DNA of 47,481 nucleotides from Candidatus Methanoperedens sp. (lineage in GTDB: Archaea > Halobacteriota > Methanosarcinia > Methanosarcinales > Methanoperedenaceae). The stretch is taken from assembly GCA_012026835.1 (NCBI GenBank), contig VEPN01000022.1, positions 1-47,481 on the forward strand. Direction: 5' to 3'. The position numbers and the translations under genes are program-made. Every line of letters starts with the position of its first letter. The stretch's first letter is position 1. Shown here one piece after another: positions 1,958 to 7,882 of this stretch. The notes beneath the pieces are model-generated. The model was given only the letters and a program-made list of their open reading frames with translations. It made no database searches and was not told where the DNA came from.

Positions 1958-2153
1958 GGTTCTGGTTAGGTAGACTTTATAAATATGTAATGCATAGTAT
2001 ATAAAAAAGGAGACTGAAGTATTAACCAGATACATTTCCACCAGCCTGTGATATTATTCTTAACCCAGGTACAGATATTCAAAAGTTCCCGCGCCTTGAG
2101 CATAACATATAAACACATCAAAACACATAAATACATACAAGGGAGGAAAATGC
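1958..2153 (+). promoter_or_regulatory. Leader and promoter region of the CBS block
   Basis: These 196 bases hold no gene. TATA-like stretches occur at about 1976-1985, 1998-2006 and 2106-2113. An eight-base inverted repeat (TCTGGTTA at 1961-1968, TAACCAGA at 2023-2030) brackets the first two. A strong Shine-Dalgarno sequence GGGAGG at 2141-2146 sets the ATG at 2154 as the start of the first CBS gene, in preference to the out-of-frame ATG at 2150. Confidence 0.45.
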
Positions 2154-2702
2154 ATGGAAGTCAGAATGCCGGTAAAAGAAATAATGACGAGAGAAGTGGC
2201 AACAGTTGATATTAAAAGCGATGTTCCACAACTTGCAAAAAAAATGATAGAGCGTAACGTCGGCAGCGTCATCATAACTGACAAAAATAAGCCAGTTGGC
2301 ATTGTTACAGAACGGGATATCGTCAGGAAAATAATCTCAAAGAACCTGAAGCCGAAGGACGTCCCGTTAAAAAATTTGATGACAACCCCGTTGATAACCA
2401 TACCTGCAGGAGAAGACGTCACCGATGCAATGCAAAAAATGGTGAAAATGCAGATCCGCAGGTTACCGGCAGTAGAAAATGCGAAACTTGTCGGTATTGT
2501 GACTGATATTGATCTTATCGCCGTCTCTGCCGAGATGGGAAGTATTTTTTCAGACCTTATCAAAATGCACAGGGAAAAAATCTTTGCCCTGGAGGCTCCG
2601 CAGAAAATCCACAGGGGAATATGTGAAGAATGCGGCGATAATGTTGATGATCTCTTACTCGTAAATGGAAAACTTCTTTGCGAGAGTTGCAGGGAAACAT
2701 AA
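2154..2702 (+). CDS. CBS-pair protein with C-terminal zinc ribbon
   Basis: The 182 residues hold two CBS motifs (about 8-62 and 70-127) forming one Bateman module, the fold that binds adenine nucleotides or S-adenosylmethionine and senses energy state. The C-terminus adds a compact zinc ribbon with CEEC at about 156-159 and CESC at about 176-179. CBS-plus-zinc-ribbon proteins are recurrent in archaea and their ligands are mostly unknown. This is the first gene of five consecutive CBS genes on the same strand and has the strongest Shine-Dalgarno sequence in the block. A direct nucleic-acid or protein-binding role for the ribbon is inference. Confidence 0.85.
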   Translation: MEVRMPVKEIMTREVATVDIKSDVPQLAKKMIERNVGSVIITDKNKPVGIVTERDIVRKIISKNLKPKDVPLKNLMTTPLITIPAGEDVTDAMQKMVKMQIRRLPAVENAKLVGIVTDIDLIAVSAEMGSIFSDLIKMHREKIFALEAPQKIHRGICEECGDNVDDLLLVNGKLLCESCRET

Positions 2703-2716
2703 GGCGGAAACTAACA

Positions 2717-2738
2717 TTTATATACACGGCAAAAGGAG
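2717..2738 (+). promoter_or_regulatory. TATA-like sequence and SD before second CBS gene
   Basis: TTTATATA at 2717-2724 lies in the 45-base gap between the first and second CBS genes, followed by AAAGGAG at 2732-2738, an SD sequence nine bases before the ATG at 2748. The TATA-like sequence could give an internal promoter, although a start site 25 bases downstream would fall after the SD, so its use is uncertain. Confidence 0.3.
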
Positions 2739-2747
2739 TATGTTGTT

Positions 2748-3530
2748 ATGAAAGTGGCCGAAATAATGACAAGCAATCCTGTTTTTCTTCATGATGTTGA
2801 TTTTATGACACATGCGCGCCAGGTGATGAGAGACCAGCATAAAAGGACCATGCCTGTCGTGGATAGTAAGAACAGGGTGATCGGTGTATTGACTGAAAAA
2901 GATATTTTAAATATTTATTCTACAAAATCCAATGTAACAGTAGAGGGGTTTGCTTCCGAATTCCCCCCGGTGTACCGCGACATGGAAATAATGCACGCCG
3001 CAAAATTGATGCTGGATGCAGGCATGGGTCGCGTCCCGATATTAAATTCAGGGCAGGATAAGATACTTGTTGGTATTTTGAGCATGGTGGATATTTTCAG
3101 GAACCTGAGCCCGGATAAGATCCCTTCAAAGAAAATCAGAGAAATCATGACGACAGATGTAAAAACGTGTTCTCCAAAAGACAGCATTGCCAAAGTCTGG
3201 CTGAACATGAAATCCACAGGTTTCTCAGGTTATCCCGTTGTAAGAGATGGTAAGATACTCGGGATGGTCACAAGGCGGAACATAATCAATGCCGGTTATG
3301 CAAGGATCGAGCGTGAAGATGAACAGGGAACTAAATCCACGATGTCCCCTCCGGTTGAAAAGGTCATGAGCGCCCCCGCATATACACTATCCCCTGAGGC
3401 CACTTTGATGGAAGCTATCCAGGCATTCCTGAAACTGGACGTGGGAAGACTTTCGGTGGTCGAGAATGGAAAGCTTGTCGGTATAATTGATAGGAATGAC
3501 ATAATTAAAGCTTGTATTAAAAATACCTGA
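2748..3530 (+). CDS. Protein of four tandem CBS motifs (second of five)
   Basis: This 260-residue protein consists almost wholly of four CBS motifs (about 1-58, 62-125, 130-187 and 203-258), that is two Bateman modules with no catalytic domain. Repeated elements such as VGVLTEKDIL-type and VGIIDRNDII-type strand-helix segments mark the end of each motif. Free-standing CBS proteins are thought to be nucleotide-responsive regulators of partner proteins. It sits 45 bases after the previous CBS gene and 12 bases before the next. No transmembrane segment or other domain is visible, and the partner cannot be read from the sequence. Confidence 0.85.
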   Translation: MKVAEIMTSNPVFLHDVDFMTHARQVMRDQHKRTMPVVDSKNRVIGVLTEKDILNIYSTKSNVTVEGFASEFPPVYRDMEIMHAAKLMLDAGMGRVPILNSGQDKILVGILSMVDIFRNLSPDKIPSKKIREIMTTDVKTCSPKDSIAKVWLNMKSTGFSGYPVVRDGKILGMVTRRNIINAGYARIEREDEQGTKSTMSPPVEKVMSAPAYTLSPEATLMEAIQAFLKLDVGRLSVVENGKLVGIIDRNDIIKACIKNT

Positions 3531-3542
3531 TATGGGTGCTTT

Positions 3543-4475
3543 ATGAAAAACCAAAAAGCTAAATCCGGGATAAAAGAAGTTCGGGATGCATATATAAGGA
3601 ATACAGGTCCTCTTGATTTTAAGACCAGGATTTCCGAAAGACATGGGGATGTTATGACTATCGCATCAAGCGATGTTGTGACTATTCCTCCTACAATGCC
3701 TATAATAGAAGCTGTCAGGACCATGTTAAATAACGGCTTCAGGAGACTGCCAATAGCAGATGCGGGTACAAAGCGCCTGATGGGGATAGTAACCTCGCAG
3801 GATATAGTGGATTTCCTGGGTGGCGGGTCAAGATACTTGATAGTAAAGAACAGGTTTAAAGGGAACTTTCTTGCAGCAGTGAACGGGAGCATCAGCGAGA
3901 TTATGGAAGAGAGCGTTGTATCCCTTTATGAGAAAGATTCACTTAAAGACGCTCTGGATACCATGCTGAAACAGAATGTGGGAGGAATCCCCATTATCGA
4001 CGAGAATACCAGGGTGAAAGCAGTGATAACAGAGAAAGACTTTGTTTTTCTCATAGCCAATGTTATCACTGGCAAAAAGGTGGTTGAGTACATGAGCAAG
4101 AATATAGTGACAGCTTCACCTGATATGACAGTGGGGATGGCCTCTAAATCCATGATAAATAACGGCTTCAGGAGGCTTCCTGTTATAAGGGACAATATCC
4201 TCATAGGTATAATTACAGCTTCGGATATCCTGCGTTTCCTTGGCAGCGGGGATATGTTCGAACGTCTTGTTACCGGAAATGCCAGGGAAGTTTTTGATGT
4301 GCCAATCCGCACACTGATAAAAAGGGATGTCATTTTCACAGGCTCGGATATGGATATAGGAGAAGCCGCAGGCATTATGCTTGAGAAAAATGTGGGTTCT
4401 CTCCCCATATTCGAGGATGGAGAAATCAAAGGGATTATAACAGAGCGCGACTTTGTTCGCGCAATTGCGGAATAG
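3543..4475 (+). CDS. Protein of four CBS motifs with N-terminal extension (third of five)
   Basis: This 310-residue protein has a short charged N-terminal stretch (about 1-35) and then four CBS motifs (about 36-95, 113-172, 176-236 and 246-308). The second to fourth motifs end in TEKDFV-, TASDIL- and TERDFV-type helices typical of the family. The phrase NNGFRRLP occurs in both the first and third motifs, pointing to internal duplication of a two-motif unit. It begins 12 bases after the previous gene with only a weak GGTG as SD, so coupled translation is likely. Ligand and partner are unknown. Confidence 0.85.
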   Translation: MKNQKAKSGIKEVRDAYIRNTGPLDFKTRISERHGDVMTIASSDVVTIPPTMPIIEAVRTMLNNGFRRLPIADAGTKRLMGIVTSQDIVDFLGGGSRYLIVKNRFKGNFLAAVNGSISEIMEESVVSLYEKDSLKDALDTMLKQNVGGIPIIDENTRVKAVITEKDFVFLIANVITGKKVVEYMSKNIVTASPDMTVGMASKSMINNGFRRLPVIRDNILIGIITASDILRFLGSGDMFERLVTGNAREVFDVPIRTLIKRDVIFTGSDMDIGEAAGIMLEKNVGSLPIFEDGEIKGIITERDFVRAIAE

Positions 4476-4486
4476 AAGGCATGTTT

Positions 4487-5335
4487 ATGAAAGTCAGAGA
4501 AATAATGAGTTCACCTGTATACGTTGTATCGCCTGAGGAGACTGTAGCAAGGGCAAGGAACCTGATGCTGCGCCATAAGATCGGAAAACTTGTAATCATA
4601 GAAAATAACAAGCCCATCGGCATAGTTACTAAAAAGGATATCAGCAGGAGACTTGACCAGGCAGAGCCGCAATGGCGTCGGCGCCCGATAGACCATATCC
4701 CTATCAGGAAGGTAATGACCGAGAGCCTGATCACAATATACCCGGATGCCACACCAAGGCAGCTTGCAGTATTGATGGTTGAGAACAATATAAGCGGACT
4801 GCCTGTTGTAAACAGCAGGAATGAAGTTACAGGAATCGTCACAAAGTGGGATCTTGTAAGGTATTTTTCAGAGCAGCCCCTGGATCTTAAAGTCAGGGAT
4901 ATGAATATCATTCCAGCGATTACTGTACACAGGCATCACACTATCAACCACATACTTTATGAGCTTGAAGCAAATTCAACTGACAGGGCGGTCGTGCTTG
5001 AGGATAATGATATGCCTGTAGGAATTATCACAAATTCAAATCTCACTTTTACTGAGATGAAAAGCAAGACCGGCGGCCTTCCGCAGAAAGAGGTAAAAAT
5101 GACGCGAAAGGAAAGCACCGGGGGGAGGAAGCAATACAGGTATGTAAAGGATATGCCTTTGGTCGCTGAGGATATAATGTCAAGCCCACTTATCACTGTT
5201 AAGTGTGATGATCTTGCAACATTCGCTGCCGAAATAATGGTAAGTGAAAGAATTAACGGGCTTGCGGTAGTTAATGATAGTGTAATGGGGATTCTGACAG
5301 GGGATAACATAGTAAAATCAATATTGGCACTTTAA
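4487..5335 (+). CDS. Protein of four CBS motifs with basic central linker (fourth of five)
   Basis: The ATG at 4487 is chosen over one six bases earlier because GAAGG at 4475-4479 is too close to the first. The protein has about 282 residues: three CBS motifs (about 1-55, 70-130 and 135-190), a lysine/arginine-rich linker (about 190-225, with QKEVKMTRK) and a final CBS motif (about 226-280). The basic linker is the one departure from the simple CBS chain and could contact nucleic acid, which is inference. It lies only 11 bases after the stop of the third CBS gene, so it is almost certainly in the same transcript. Confidence 0.82.
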   Translation: MKVREIMSSPVYVVSPEETVARARNLMLRHKIGKLVIIENNKPIGIVTKKDISRRLDQAEPQWRRRPIDHIPIRKVMTESLITIYPDATPRQLAVLMVENNISGLPVVNSRNEVTGIVTKWDLVRYFSEQPLDLKVRDMNIIPAITVHRHHTINHILYELEANSTDRAVVLEDNDMPVGIITNSNLTFTEMKSKTGGLPQKEVKMTRKESTGGRKQYRYVKDMPLVAEDIMSSPLITVKCDDLATFAAEIMVSERINGLAVVNDSVMGILTGDNIVKSILAL

Positions 5336-5344
5336 GGTGAGAAC

Positions 5345-6127
5345 ATGATTGTAAAAAACATAATGACAGACCCGATTCTTGTGCATAAGGCAGACAAGAT
5401 TTCGCACGCAATGGAACTGATGGCAAAACATGATACCCGCAGGCTCCTTGTTATTAATGGGGGCGATATCCTTGGTGTTATTACAATGAGGAGCATCGCC
5501 CGGAAACTTGGGACATGGAAAACATCAAATCTCCCTGCCTCATCGCTGCATGTTGCAACAGCAACAACGGATCTATTTTCAAAGGTTCTTCCTGATACAG
5601 ACATCGAAGATGCGATTACATTAATGGACAGGAAAGGCGGGATCCTTGTTGTTACAGACAACAGTAAGATTCTCGGATGGGTAACGCCTCATGAAATCCT
5701 GAGAAATGCACACGCAATAAAAGGTTATGCAGCGGAGATAATGAAAGAGCCGATATCTGTGAGTGTGAACGACAGGGTATCGCATGCAAGGCGCTTAATG
5801 CTGGATAACGATATTGGAAGGCTTCCTGTAGTTGAAAATGGAGATCTTGTCGGTATTATAACAGAGAGAGATGTTGCAAAAAGCCTGATGAATTTCAGGA
5901 CCCTTGTACCTGACAATCAGCAGGATGAAAGAATCCGCAACCTCATCGCCTCAGATATCATGACTCAGAATGTGAAGTCTGTCAGGACGAATACTCCCAT
6001 AGCCGAGGTAATATCATTAATCCTGACTGAAAATATAGGCGGCGTGCCGGTACTGAACCTCAGGGATGAGATGGTAGGAGTTATCAGCAGGAGGGCTATC
6101 ATCAGGCACCTGGCGGCGAAAGGATGA
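5345..6127 (+). CDS. Protein of four CBS motifs, coupled to RNA ligase (fifth of five)
   Basis: These 260 residues form four CBS motifs (about 1-56, 70-122, 128-183 and 200-258). The third contains the canonical sequence VGIITERDV. An AAGGTGAG Shine-Dalgarno sequence precedes the ATG. The stop codon overlaps the start of the RNA ligase gene in an ATGA arrangement, so translation of the two is probably coupled. This makes it the CBS protein most likely to work with the ligase, though the overlap shows only co-expression. Confidence 0.85.
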   Translation: MIVKNIMTDPILVHKADKISHAMELMAKHDTRRLLVINGGDILGVITMRSIARKLGTWKTSNLPASSLHVATATTDLFSKVLPDTDIEDAITLMDRKGGILVVTDNSKILGWVTPHEILRNAHAIKGYAAEIMKEPISVSVNDRVSHARRLMLDNDIGRLPVVENGDLVGIITERDVAKSLMNFRTLVPDNQQDERIRNLIASDIMTQNVKSVRTNTPIAEVISLILTENIGGVPVLNLRDEMVGVISRRAIIRHLAAKG

Positions 6128-7290
6128 GACACGGTGTCTCAGAACTCATAAATAAACTTGATATAGATAAAATTTCAGGGTTGCTTGAGATACCCGGATA
6201 CAGGATAGCAGGCGCAATACAAAGGAAGACATTACAGTATGTTCGAGGAATGCCTGAATTTTTCAGGTTCGATAAGCCTATGTCCACTGTCGAGGGCGGC
6301 ACTTCTATTTTTATTGAACCGTTCGACATCATAAGAGGCTTTCCCAAAATACCACGCACCCTCATACTGTATCCTGCGCTGAAACGGCATTTCACCTCAT
6401 GCGGGAGTGTTATTGTTGAAGAGAAGATGAACGGGTACAATGCCAGGGTCGCCCTTGTCGGTGGTTCGATCGTTGGGCTTACCCGCGGCGGTTTTGTATG
6501 CCCTTATACCACCGAGAAAGCAAACGAGTTGATAGGGCGTGATTTTTTTCTGGAACATCCTGATCTTGTTCTTTGCGGCGAAATGGCCGGCCCGGATAAT
6601 CCCTATGTGCCCAAATCTTTTTATGATATCGAATCCCTTGAGTTTTACTTATTTGATATAAGGGAGAAAATCTCAGGGAAACCTTTGCCTGTTATGGAAA
6701 GGAAGGCGCTCGCGGATAATTTCGGGATCAGGTCGGTGCGATTTTTCGGAGAATATAATGTTGATGAAGCGCATCACCGGGTAACAAGGATAATAAAGGA
6801 ATTCGGGGATTCGCTGCATGAAGGGGTGGTTATTAAAGACCCTCAAATGCGATTGCCCCCTGTAAAGTACACAAGTACGCAGAGCAACTGTGCAGACCTC
6901 AGGTACGCTTTTGAATTTTACAATGACCTTGGAAGGGACTTTTTCTTCCCAAGGGTATGCAGGGAAGCTTTCCAGTCAGTGGAATGGGGCGAGAATGAGG
7001 AGGACAGGAGGAAAAGATGCCAGAGGCTGGGGGAGAGCATCCTGCTGCCTATGATAAATACTATCAACCGTAAAAAGCAGGGCGAGCGAATCAGTGAAAC
7101 CGTACAGATAAGGGTCAGGAAACTGGAAACAGCAAGGAAATTTGAAGAGCATTTACATATCCTGGGAATGGATGCTGTCTTTGAGGAACCCGAAAAGATA
7201 GGTGACGAATACCTGGTACGGATTAAAAAAATATACATGAGTACAAACGACAAAACAGAATCAACCCTCAGGGGAGAACTGTGGAGTTAA
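6124..7290 (+). CDS. ATP-dependent RNA ligase, Rnl3 / Pab1020-like
   Basis: This 388-residue protein matches the archaeal Rnl3 RNA ligases (Pab1020, MTH1221), homodimeric enzymes that join 5'-phosphate and 3'-hydroxyl RNA ends and can circularise RNA. The nucleotidyltransferase motif I is KMNGYN with the AMP-accepting lysine at residue 101. Downstream come a glutamate-bearing region (LEFYLFDIRE, about residues 176-185) and motif IV (EGVVIKDP, about 234-241). The C-terminal third is helical, as in the Rnl3 dimerisation domain. It is ATGA-overlapped with the fifth CBS gene. CBS modules bind adenine nucleotides and the ligase consumes ATP, so a regulatory link is conceivable but inferred only from position. 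Confidence 0.85.
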   Translation: MRHGVSELINKLDIDKISGLLEIPGYRIAGAIQRKTLQYVRGMPEFFRFDKPMSTVEGGTSIFIEPFDIIRGFPKIPRTLILYPALKRHFTSCGSVIVEEKMNGYNARVALVGGSIVGLTRGGFVCPYTTEKANELIGRDFFLEHPDLVLCGEMAGPDNPYVPKSFYDIESLEFYLFDIREKISGKPLPVMERKALADNFGIRSVRFFGEYNVDEAHHRVTRIIKEFGDSLHEGVVIKDPQMRLPPVKYTSTQSNCADLRYAFEFYNDLGRDFFFPRVCREAFQSVEWGENEEDRRKRCQRLGESILLPMINTINRKKQGERISETVQIRVRKLETARKFEEHLHILGMDAVFEEPEKIGDEYLVRIKKIYMSTNDKTESTLRGELWS

Positions 7291-7361
7291 GAGTTTTTAA
7301 AATATTTTTTTTGTAGTGACCTTTATTACTTATACAATACAAATTTGAACAGGGTGAAAAA

Positions 7362-7571
7362 ATGCCGTTCGTTAAAATAATCGATACAGTTGGCTCTTCA
7401 TCTGAGAGCTGGGAGCAGGCCGCCAAAAACGCGATAGAAGATGCGTCCAGGCTTCCGATTTTCAAGCAGAAAGGAAAGATCACAAAAGCCACTATAAAGG
7501 AATTTGATGTCAGGATTGAGGATAACAAGATAGCTGCATATCTTTGCAGGGTAGAGATGTTCCTCGAATAA
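7362..7571 (+). CDS. Dodecin
   Basis: A 69-residue protein with the dodecin signature: a first strand VKIIDTVGSS, one helix with SWEQAAKNAIEDA, then two strands. Dodecins assemble as hollow dodecamers that store flavin or flavin-like cofactors in the cytoplasm. Length is typical. The SD sequence AGGGTG lies seven bases before the ATG, and a T-rich, TATA-bearing 70-base gap separates it from the RNA ligase, so it may have its own promoter. It is followed after eight bases by a winged-helix gene. Which flavin is bound cannot be told from sequence. Confidence 0.85.
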   Translation: MPFVKIIDTVGSSSESWEQAAKNAIEDASRLPIFKQKGKITKATIKEFDVRIEDNKIAAYLCRVEMFLE

Positions 7572-7579
7572 GGGGTAAT

Positions 7580-7882
7580 ATGCCTGAAATAAGCGATGAT
7601 GAGCTTGAGGCCATGCTTGAGCGCCGTCCTTCAGTGAGGGAGGCAAAAGTCGCTGACCACGAGCTCATGGTCAAGGCACTGGAACACCCGACACGGAGGA
7701 AGATGATAAAGGTAATCGGTGTATTTGGCAAGAAAAAAAGCGAACTGCAAAAGGAAGTCGGGGTTAATGAGTCCATATTCAATTTCCAGACAGATTTCCT
7801 GATAAAAGGGAATTATATTAAAATTGAAGAGGACACTTTCAGGCTGACTGACAGGGGGCTTGTGCTGTTGTCGAATATATGA
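7580..7882 (+). CDS. Small winged-helix (ArsR-like) protein
   Basis: The ATG at 7580 follows AAGGGGT closely and fits the protein better than the upstream TTG. The product has 100 residues: an acidic N-terminus, then a winged helix starting at ALEHPTRRKMIKVI (about residues 34-47), a pattern of ArsR-type HTH proteins, and a final wing with FRLTDRGLVLLS. It lacks obvious metal-binding cysteines. It begins eight bases after the dodecin stop, which suggests a dodecin/regulator pair. A DNA-binding role is likely from the fold; the target is unknown. Confidence 0.65.
   Translation: MPEISDDELEAMLERRPSVREAKVADHELMVKALEHPTRRKMIKVIGVFGKKKSELQKEVGVNESIFNFQTDFLIKGNYIKIEEDTFRLTDRGLVLLSNI

Follow-up and report, generated by a model that had tools for sequence, protein, structure and literature searches.

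The window examined here, the whole 47,481-nucleotide (nt) stretch of a Candidatus Methanoperedens assembly (GCA_012026835.1, contig VEPN01000022.1, designated C34), belongs to a genome of 3.32 Mb that is 99.8% complete. It contains five genes for CBS-domain proteins arranged head to tail on the + strand between positions 2154 and 6127, directly followed by a gene for an Rnl3-type RNA ligase. According to Pfam, genes 1–5 encode 2+4+4+4+4 = 18 CBS domains, out of 42 CBS matches genome-wide. The intergenic gaps from gene 1 to the ligase measure 45, 12, 11, 9 and −4 nt, the last being a 4-nt overlap between gene 5 and the ligase, which starts at 6124 within the sequence ATGA. We interpret this cluster as an operon for ribosome hibernation (Sri) in Candidatus Methanoperedens that carries an accessory Rnl3 cistron, with a probability of roughly 0.85. 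The first-pass annotation of this DNA had described the five consecutive genes, their 18 CBS motifs and the ATGA overlap with the ligase, all of which we confirm, and had read them as a possible energy-sensing control of RNA joining or circularisation. Its observation stands and its interpretation is largely replaced.

The genes and signals of the cluster are listed in Table 1. The putative promoter upstream of gene 1 is retained in nearly all Methanoperedens-type loci, and the sequence farther upstream diverges. The only other sizeable gap, between genes 1 and 2, often contains a second TATA-like stretch, and an internal transcription start may be located there. The five CBS genes and the ligase are probably co-transcribed.

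Table 1 Features of the Sri–Rnl3 cluster in the window
Feature	Position	Strand	Evidence
Putative promoter and Shine–Dalgarno sequence GGGAGG	2100..2146	+	GCATAACATATAAACAC, TATA box ~45 nt 5' of ATG
Gene 1	2154..2702	+	PF00571 x2; C-terminal rubredoxin-like CxxC...CxxC domain
Gene 2, SriA orthologue (CM-5), 4 CBS	2748..3530	+	9znf chain 4, Dri 19-291, HibA CBS module
Gene 3, SriB orthologue (CM-4; MJ1225-like), 4 CBS	3543..4475	+	9znf chain 5, MJ1225
Gene 4, SriC orthologue (CM-1), 4 CBS	4487..5335 (start 4481 or 4487)	+	9zni chain 6
Gene 5, SriD orthologue (CM-2), 4 CBS	5345..6127	+	9zng chain 7, 9zni chain 7
Rnl3 ATP-dependent RNA ligase (Pab1020/MthRnl-type)	6124..7290	+	TIGR01209, PF18330, PF09414
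T8 run, candidate transcript end	7305..7312	+	Sequence; counterpart T7 run in locus L071

Genes 2–5 match protein chains in three cryo-EM entries of the Methanosarcina acetivorans 70S ribosome, all of which also contain ribosomal protein uS13. The gene 2 profile matches 9znf_4 (E=2.3e-100), gene 3 matches 9znf_5 (E=1.1e-118), gene 4 matches 9zni_6 (E=5.7e-111) and gene 5 matches both 9zng_7 and 9zni_7 (E=2e-113); the next-best Sri chain reaches no better than 6e-34 for any of the four. The entry titles describe the ribosome with SriA and SriB (9znf), with SriD (9zng) and with SriC and SriD (9zni). Gene 5 therefore corresponds to SriD, as given by 9zng, and gene 4 to SriC, as given by 9zni, whereas gene 2 is probably SriA and gene 3 SriB, judging solely from the order of chains and genes. 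The predicted structure of gene 5 superposes on 9zng chain 7 with a TM-score of 0.94 and a root-mean-square deviation of 1.2 Å at 55% identity, and a Methanosarcina gene 3 protein shows near-identity to 9znf_5 from end to end. SriA–SriD of M. acetivorans (9ZNF, 9ZNG, 9ZNI) contain four CBS domains each, and the gene order in the window agrees with the chain order 4–7. By these sequence matches, genes 2–5 are one-to-one orthologues of SriA–D. Since SriA–D are ribosome-bound, the cluster most likely serves to silence ribosomes and not to control the ligase.

This assignment is compatible with a classification of archaeal hibernation factors (PMC13324472, Nat Commun 2026), which defines the CBS-module families CM-1 to CM-6 and reports that methanogens carry a CM-5/4/1/2 cluster of four 4-CBS families. 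In dormant ribosomes of M. acetivorans, the same study found CM-1 as well as CM-4, and it derived the factor Dri from a CM-5/CM-1 fusion; the term RNA ligase has 0 occurrences in it. Gene 2 corresponds to CM-5 and gene 4 to CM-1, and the order 5/4/1/2 suggests CM-4 for gene 3 and CM-2 for gene 5. In line with this, the first and second modules of Dri from Pyrobaculum calidifontis (9E6Q, 9E7F; residues 19–291 and 434–633) align with genes 2 and 4, respectively. Particularly, gene 4 possesses a basic 42-residue loop between CBS3 and CBS4, whose motif RK..G...RY.K aligns with the C-terminal module of Dri and which is conserved among the orthologues with a median net charge of +4. However, Dri is one fused protein, whereas in Methanoperedens the CM-5 and CM-1 modules are encoded by separate genes 2 and 4 and are accompanied by SriB and SriD; the label Dri was thus rejected. 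The CBS module of Pyrococcus abyssi HibA is related to gene 2 as well (9sr9_H, E=1e-33), but HibA carries a C-terminal HPF/RaiA domain that is absent from the Methanoperedens proteins, and this label was also rejected. No Pfam match to PF02482 (HPF/RaiA) was found on genes 1–5 or elsewhere in the host genome, which agrees with the reported mutual exclusion of HibA and the CM proteins. Chain H of 9sr9, a 392-residue protein with four CBS domains, is named 'Dehydrogenase' in the entry and is probably HibA; the entry set includes a P. abyssi-type ribosome (9sra).

The arrangement was compared across 70 ligase loci of the phylum (the window included), 80 named loci and 295 genomes of the phylum. 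In 61 of the 70 ligase loci, CBS genes are located upstream of the ligase on the same strand, the nearest at no more than 1.5 kb; the other nine (L050–L058) contain divergent, apparently haloarchaeal-type ligases with no CBS genes nearby. CBS genes likewise precede the ligase in 74 of the 80 named loci. Of the remaining six, three Methanosarcina loci (L132, L136, L147) are truncated at contig borders, and the three from Ethanoperedens and Argoarchaeum have no CBS genes within 8 kb of the ligase. The adjacency therefore extends far outside this genome, so the ground on which the first-pass annotation would have given up its reading, adjacency in this genome only, does not hold. Moreover, the order of the five genes is fixed in all 72 complete loci, and the best-scoring match of each CBS protein in the other loci always occupies the corresponding position, which indicates five old ortholog families instead of recent copies. 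Chance clustering and recent tandem duplication were rejected on these grounds. In genomes with both ligase and array, the ligase is nearly always found close to the array on its downstream side.

In Archaeoglobaceae-like genomes (family f7), the ligase is accompanied by genes 1 and 3 alone, genes 2, 4 and 5 being absent. In Methanolobus-like genomes (genus g6), genes 1, 4 and 5 stay together with the ligase and genes 2 and 3 are found together elsewhere (G261, G266, G276, G247), a split that mirrors the pairing in the ribosome structures; in some genomes of this genus gene 3 is missing. In addition, we compared the outer neighbours of 37 array–ligase loci. At ligase identities below 45%, neighbours are common to only 3 of 293 locus pairs on the upstream side and to 0 of 293 on the downstream side, so the array–ligase junction has outlived its surroundings.

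The ligase is a complete member of the Rnl3 family, as indicated by TIGR01209 (391.6 bits, cut-off 136.9), PF09414 and PF18330, the last representing the C-terminal domain of Pab1020. Its profile matches MthRnl (5D1O, E=2.3e-135) and also Pab1020 (2VUG), and it shares with these enzymes the full-length family match, the catalytic motif (nucleotidyl lysine motif EEKMNGYN, residues 99–106) and the presence of a HARP nuclease in the same genome. Its closest public relatives come from uncultured archaea and Candidatus Methanoperedens. Among the 295 genomes, counted irrespective of phylogeny and with genes missing from incomplete assemblies scored as absent, ligase and HARP occur together in 117, the ligase only in 3, HARP only in 5 and neither in 170 (Matthews correlation coefficient (MCC) 0.94). 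The corresponding numbers for ligase and gene 3 are 99, 21, 84 and 91 (MCC 0.35); nine of the 21 ligase-only genomes are Methanolobus-like and belong to a genus in which other array genes are retained. By phyletic pattern the functional partner of the ligase is HARP, as described in PMC12153264, whereas its local partner here, the Sri array, is not mentioned in that paper. The HARP gene of the host genome is located away from the array (G000:C53:86055-86699). On this contig, HARP (L152:8056-8700) lies about 5 kb from the gene of an HhpR-like (CM-3) 4-CBS protein.

Loss of the ligase leaves the array in place. Within genus g34, one genome (G026) has both ligase and HARP, whereas G059, G065 and G083 have neither and keep genes 1 and 3; G059 retains all five CBS genes. 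A further genome, G014, also keeps CBS genes without ligase and HARP. The retention of the array in such genomes argues that it works without the ligase. In genome G010 (contig C1:15290-19866, locus L161), gene 5 is in two pieces, a 54-residue ligase remnant lies downstream and HARP is present, which reflects either decay of the ligase or an assembly error.

The first-pass annotation had supposed that the CBS modules bind adenine nucleotides, which is plausible for some of the proteins. Both sites of gene 1, as well as CBS1 and CBS4 of gene 3, carry the T/S-x-x-D ribose-phosphate motif in 72/72 five-gene loci; gene 4 has it at CBS1 in 72/72 and at CBS2 in 71/72. Gene 3 further matches, over its full length, MJ1225 (3kh5, E=3e-94), a putative archaeal homologue of AMPK-gamma. 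In gene 5 (SriD), three of the four CBS domains are devoid of the motif. The HibA module is reported to prefer AMP (Kd 12 µM), and its native complexes contain no nucleotide (PMC13324472). It is plausible from these motifs that part of the array senses adenylates and thereby switches ribosomes rather than the ligase.

Gene 1 differs from its neighbours by a rubredoxin-like C-terminal domain, which the first-pass annotation did not mention. The four cysteines of its CxxC...CxxC pattern do not vary across sets of 14 and 30 orthologues. The AlphaFold model (pLDDT 81) has a full-length Foldseek match to TA0289 (1PVM, 2QH1), which shows the same architecture of two CBS domains and a Cys4 site at about 27% identity; gene 1 differs in heading a hibernation-factor operon. 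It is present in 242 of the 295 genomes, wider than the rest of the array, and the Archaeoglobaceae-like genomes keep it alongside gene 3. No separate chain matching gene 1 was found in the ribosome entries. Gene 1 falls outside the CM scheme of PMC13324472, in which proteins with a single CBS tandem are left out. Family f8 genomes (for example G142 and G180) contain up to nine gene 1-like CBS–rubredoxin genes each, without gene 3 and the ligase.

These data suggest the following model. At low energy, SriA–SriD would attach to idle 70S ribosomes as four-CBS discs, SriA paired with SriB and SriC paired with SriD, and would shut off and protect the ribosomes. By analogy with Dri, SriA would cover the peptidyl-transferase region, and SriC would use its basic loop to cover the mRNA channel. 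The switch may be tuned by adenylates bound to SriB and perhaps also to gene 1 and SriC. Gene 1 is a conserved companion within the Sri operon. Rnl3 and the HARP nuclease would act on RNA ends, in the circularisation of small RNAs or the repair of tRNA or rRNA, and a ligase made together with the hibernation factors may seal stable RNAs while the ribosomes rest. Circularisation of 23S rRNA was not adopted as a job of the ligase because PMC12918454 assigns it to EndA and RtcB. The conserved position of the ligase may thus mean that an enzyme of RNA end processing is expressed jointly with the hibernation factors. A more specific proposal, which we put forward tentatively and hold to be possible at best, is that Rnl3/HARP constitutes the RNA end-processing arm of the Sri programme, in which the ligase reseals or circularises dormancy RNAs (rRNA nicks, tRNAs, guide RNAs) and the CBS–rubredoxin protein feeds a redox or metal signal into the operon.

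Several points weigh against a hibernation operon with a built-in ligase. Binding of Sri proteins to idle ribosomes is known only from M. acetivorans, and no ligase chain is present in the Sri ribosome entries. Array and ligase are separable: they occur together in 108 genomes, 84 of the 192 genomes with the array have no ligase, and 12 genomes, such as those with haloarchaeal-type ligases, have the ligase without the array. Spacing in the Methanoperedens cluster is tight up to and including the ligase, whereas Methanosarcina has long spacers and a distance of more than 1 kb between gene 5 and the ligase, with an opposite-strand gene in between in L037; a shared gene 5–ligase transcript is thus unlikely there. 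Furthermore, knock-out of the ligase in Thermococcus caused no growth defect (PMC12153264). The main rival to co-expression of ligase and hibernation factors is that the linkage is inherited gene order only, with a common transcript in some lineages and no joint function. We regard this as possible but on balance doubtful. It would account for the presence of the ligase following HARP and not the array, for the unlinked ligases of Ethanoperedens and Argoarchaeum and for the intervening gene in Methanosarcina L037. Mere inheritance, however, fits poorly with the replacement of neighbours on both outer sides at the same divergence and with the Archaeoglobaceae-like genomes, in which the ligase stays beside genes 1 and 3 without genes 2, 4 and 5. 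From the last two observations, the junction seems to be selectively preserved.

A direct switch, in which the CBS proteins bind adenylates and turn the RNA ligase on or off, was the function suggested by the first-pass annotation, and we consider it very unlikely. The conserved adjacency with its ATGA overlap, the intact ribose-phosphate motifs of gene 1, SriB and SriC and the use of ATP by the ligase are all compatible with such a switch. Yet the Sri proteins bind ribosomes, no CBS chain is known to be bound to a ligase, SriD has lost most of its ligand motifs, and the ligase follows HARP far more closely than the array. Both the 84 ligase-less arrays and the CBS genes kept by G059, G065, G083 and G014 point in the same direction, and from this pattern of presence and absence ligase control was rejected as the main function. 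Even less probable is a role of the 4-CBS proteins in transcription regulation, in the manner of HhpR (a stand-alone CBS module assigned to CM-3 in PMC13324472), instead of a role on the ribosome. Genes 2–5 match the Sri chains far better than HhpR and were for this reason rejected as HhpR-type regulators, and the HhpR-like protein of this genome is encoded by a different gene on contig C53 (L152:13804-14664).

The hibernation operon reading places the CBS genes in a known class, the Sri/CM hibernation factors, seen here in Methanoperedens. What looked like an oddity can now be assigned to a named system, in a methane oxidiser of environmental importance, and a reading that was plausible but incorrect has been revised. 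Apparently new are the linkage of Rnl3/HARP to a hibernation operon and its fifth member, the CBS–rubredoxin-like protein. In the openly available literature, which did not cover the Dri paper and any Sri paper, we found no description of the link between Rnl3/HARP and the Sri operon, and searches on MTH1221, MTH1223 and CBS proteins with an RNA ligase revealed no link either. The conserved place of the ligase beside the hibernation array provides a testable lead on the role of Rnl3/HARP, namely RNA maintenance in dormancy.

Downstream of the ligase, a dodecin gene (7362–7571) and a winged-helix gene (7580–7882) follow, as the first-pass annotation had noted. They start 71 nt past the ligase, behind the T8 run, and adjoin it in no locus other than the window and that of its closest relative, L071. 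Since they lie behind the T-run and are common only to the nearest relative, they were rejected as operon members. In Methanosarcinaceae, the ligase is followed by a homologue of EF-Tu/SelB-like GTPases (L032:11167-12207; L033, L037), another translation-related neighbour. On the other side, a conserved OapC/OapB/Era-like GTPase cassette is located divergently 5' of the array in many families, both ligase-bearing and ligase-less (L095:2476-3907, L048, L158, L159, L161, L163–L165), and is absent from the window. Here the gene directly 5' of the array encodes aMBF1 (1472–1957), which occupies the same place in five other Methanoperedens-type loci.

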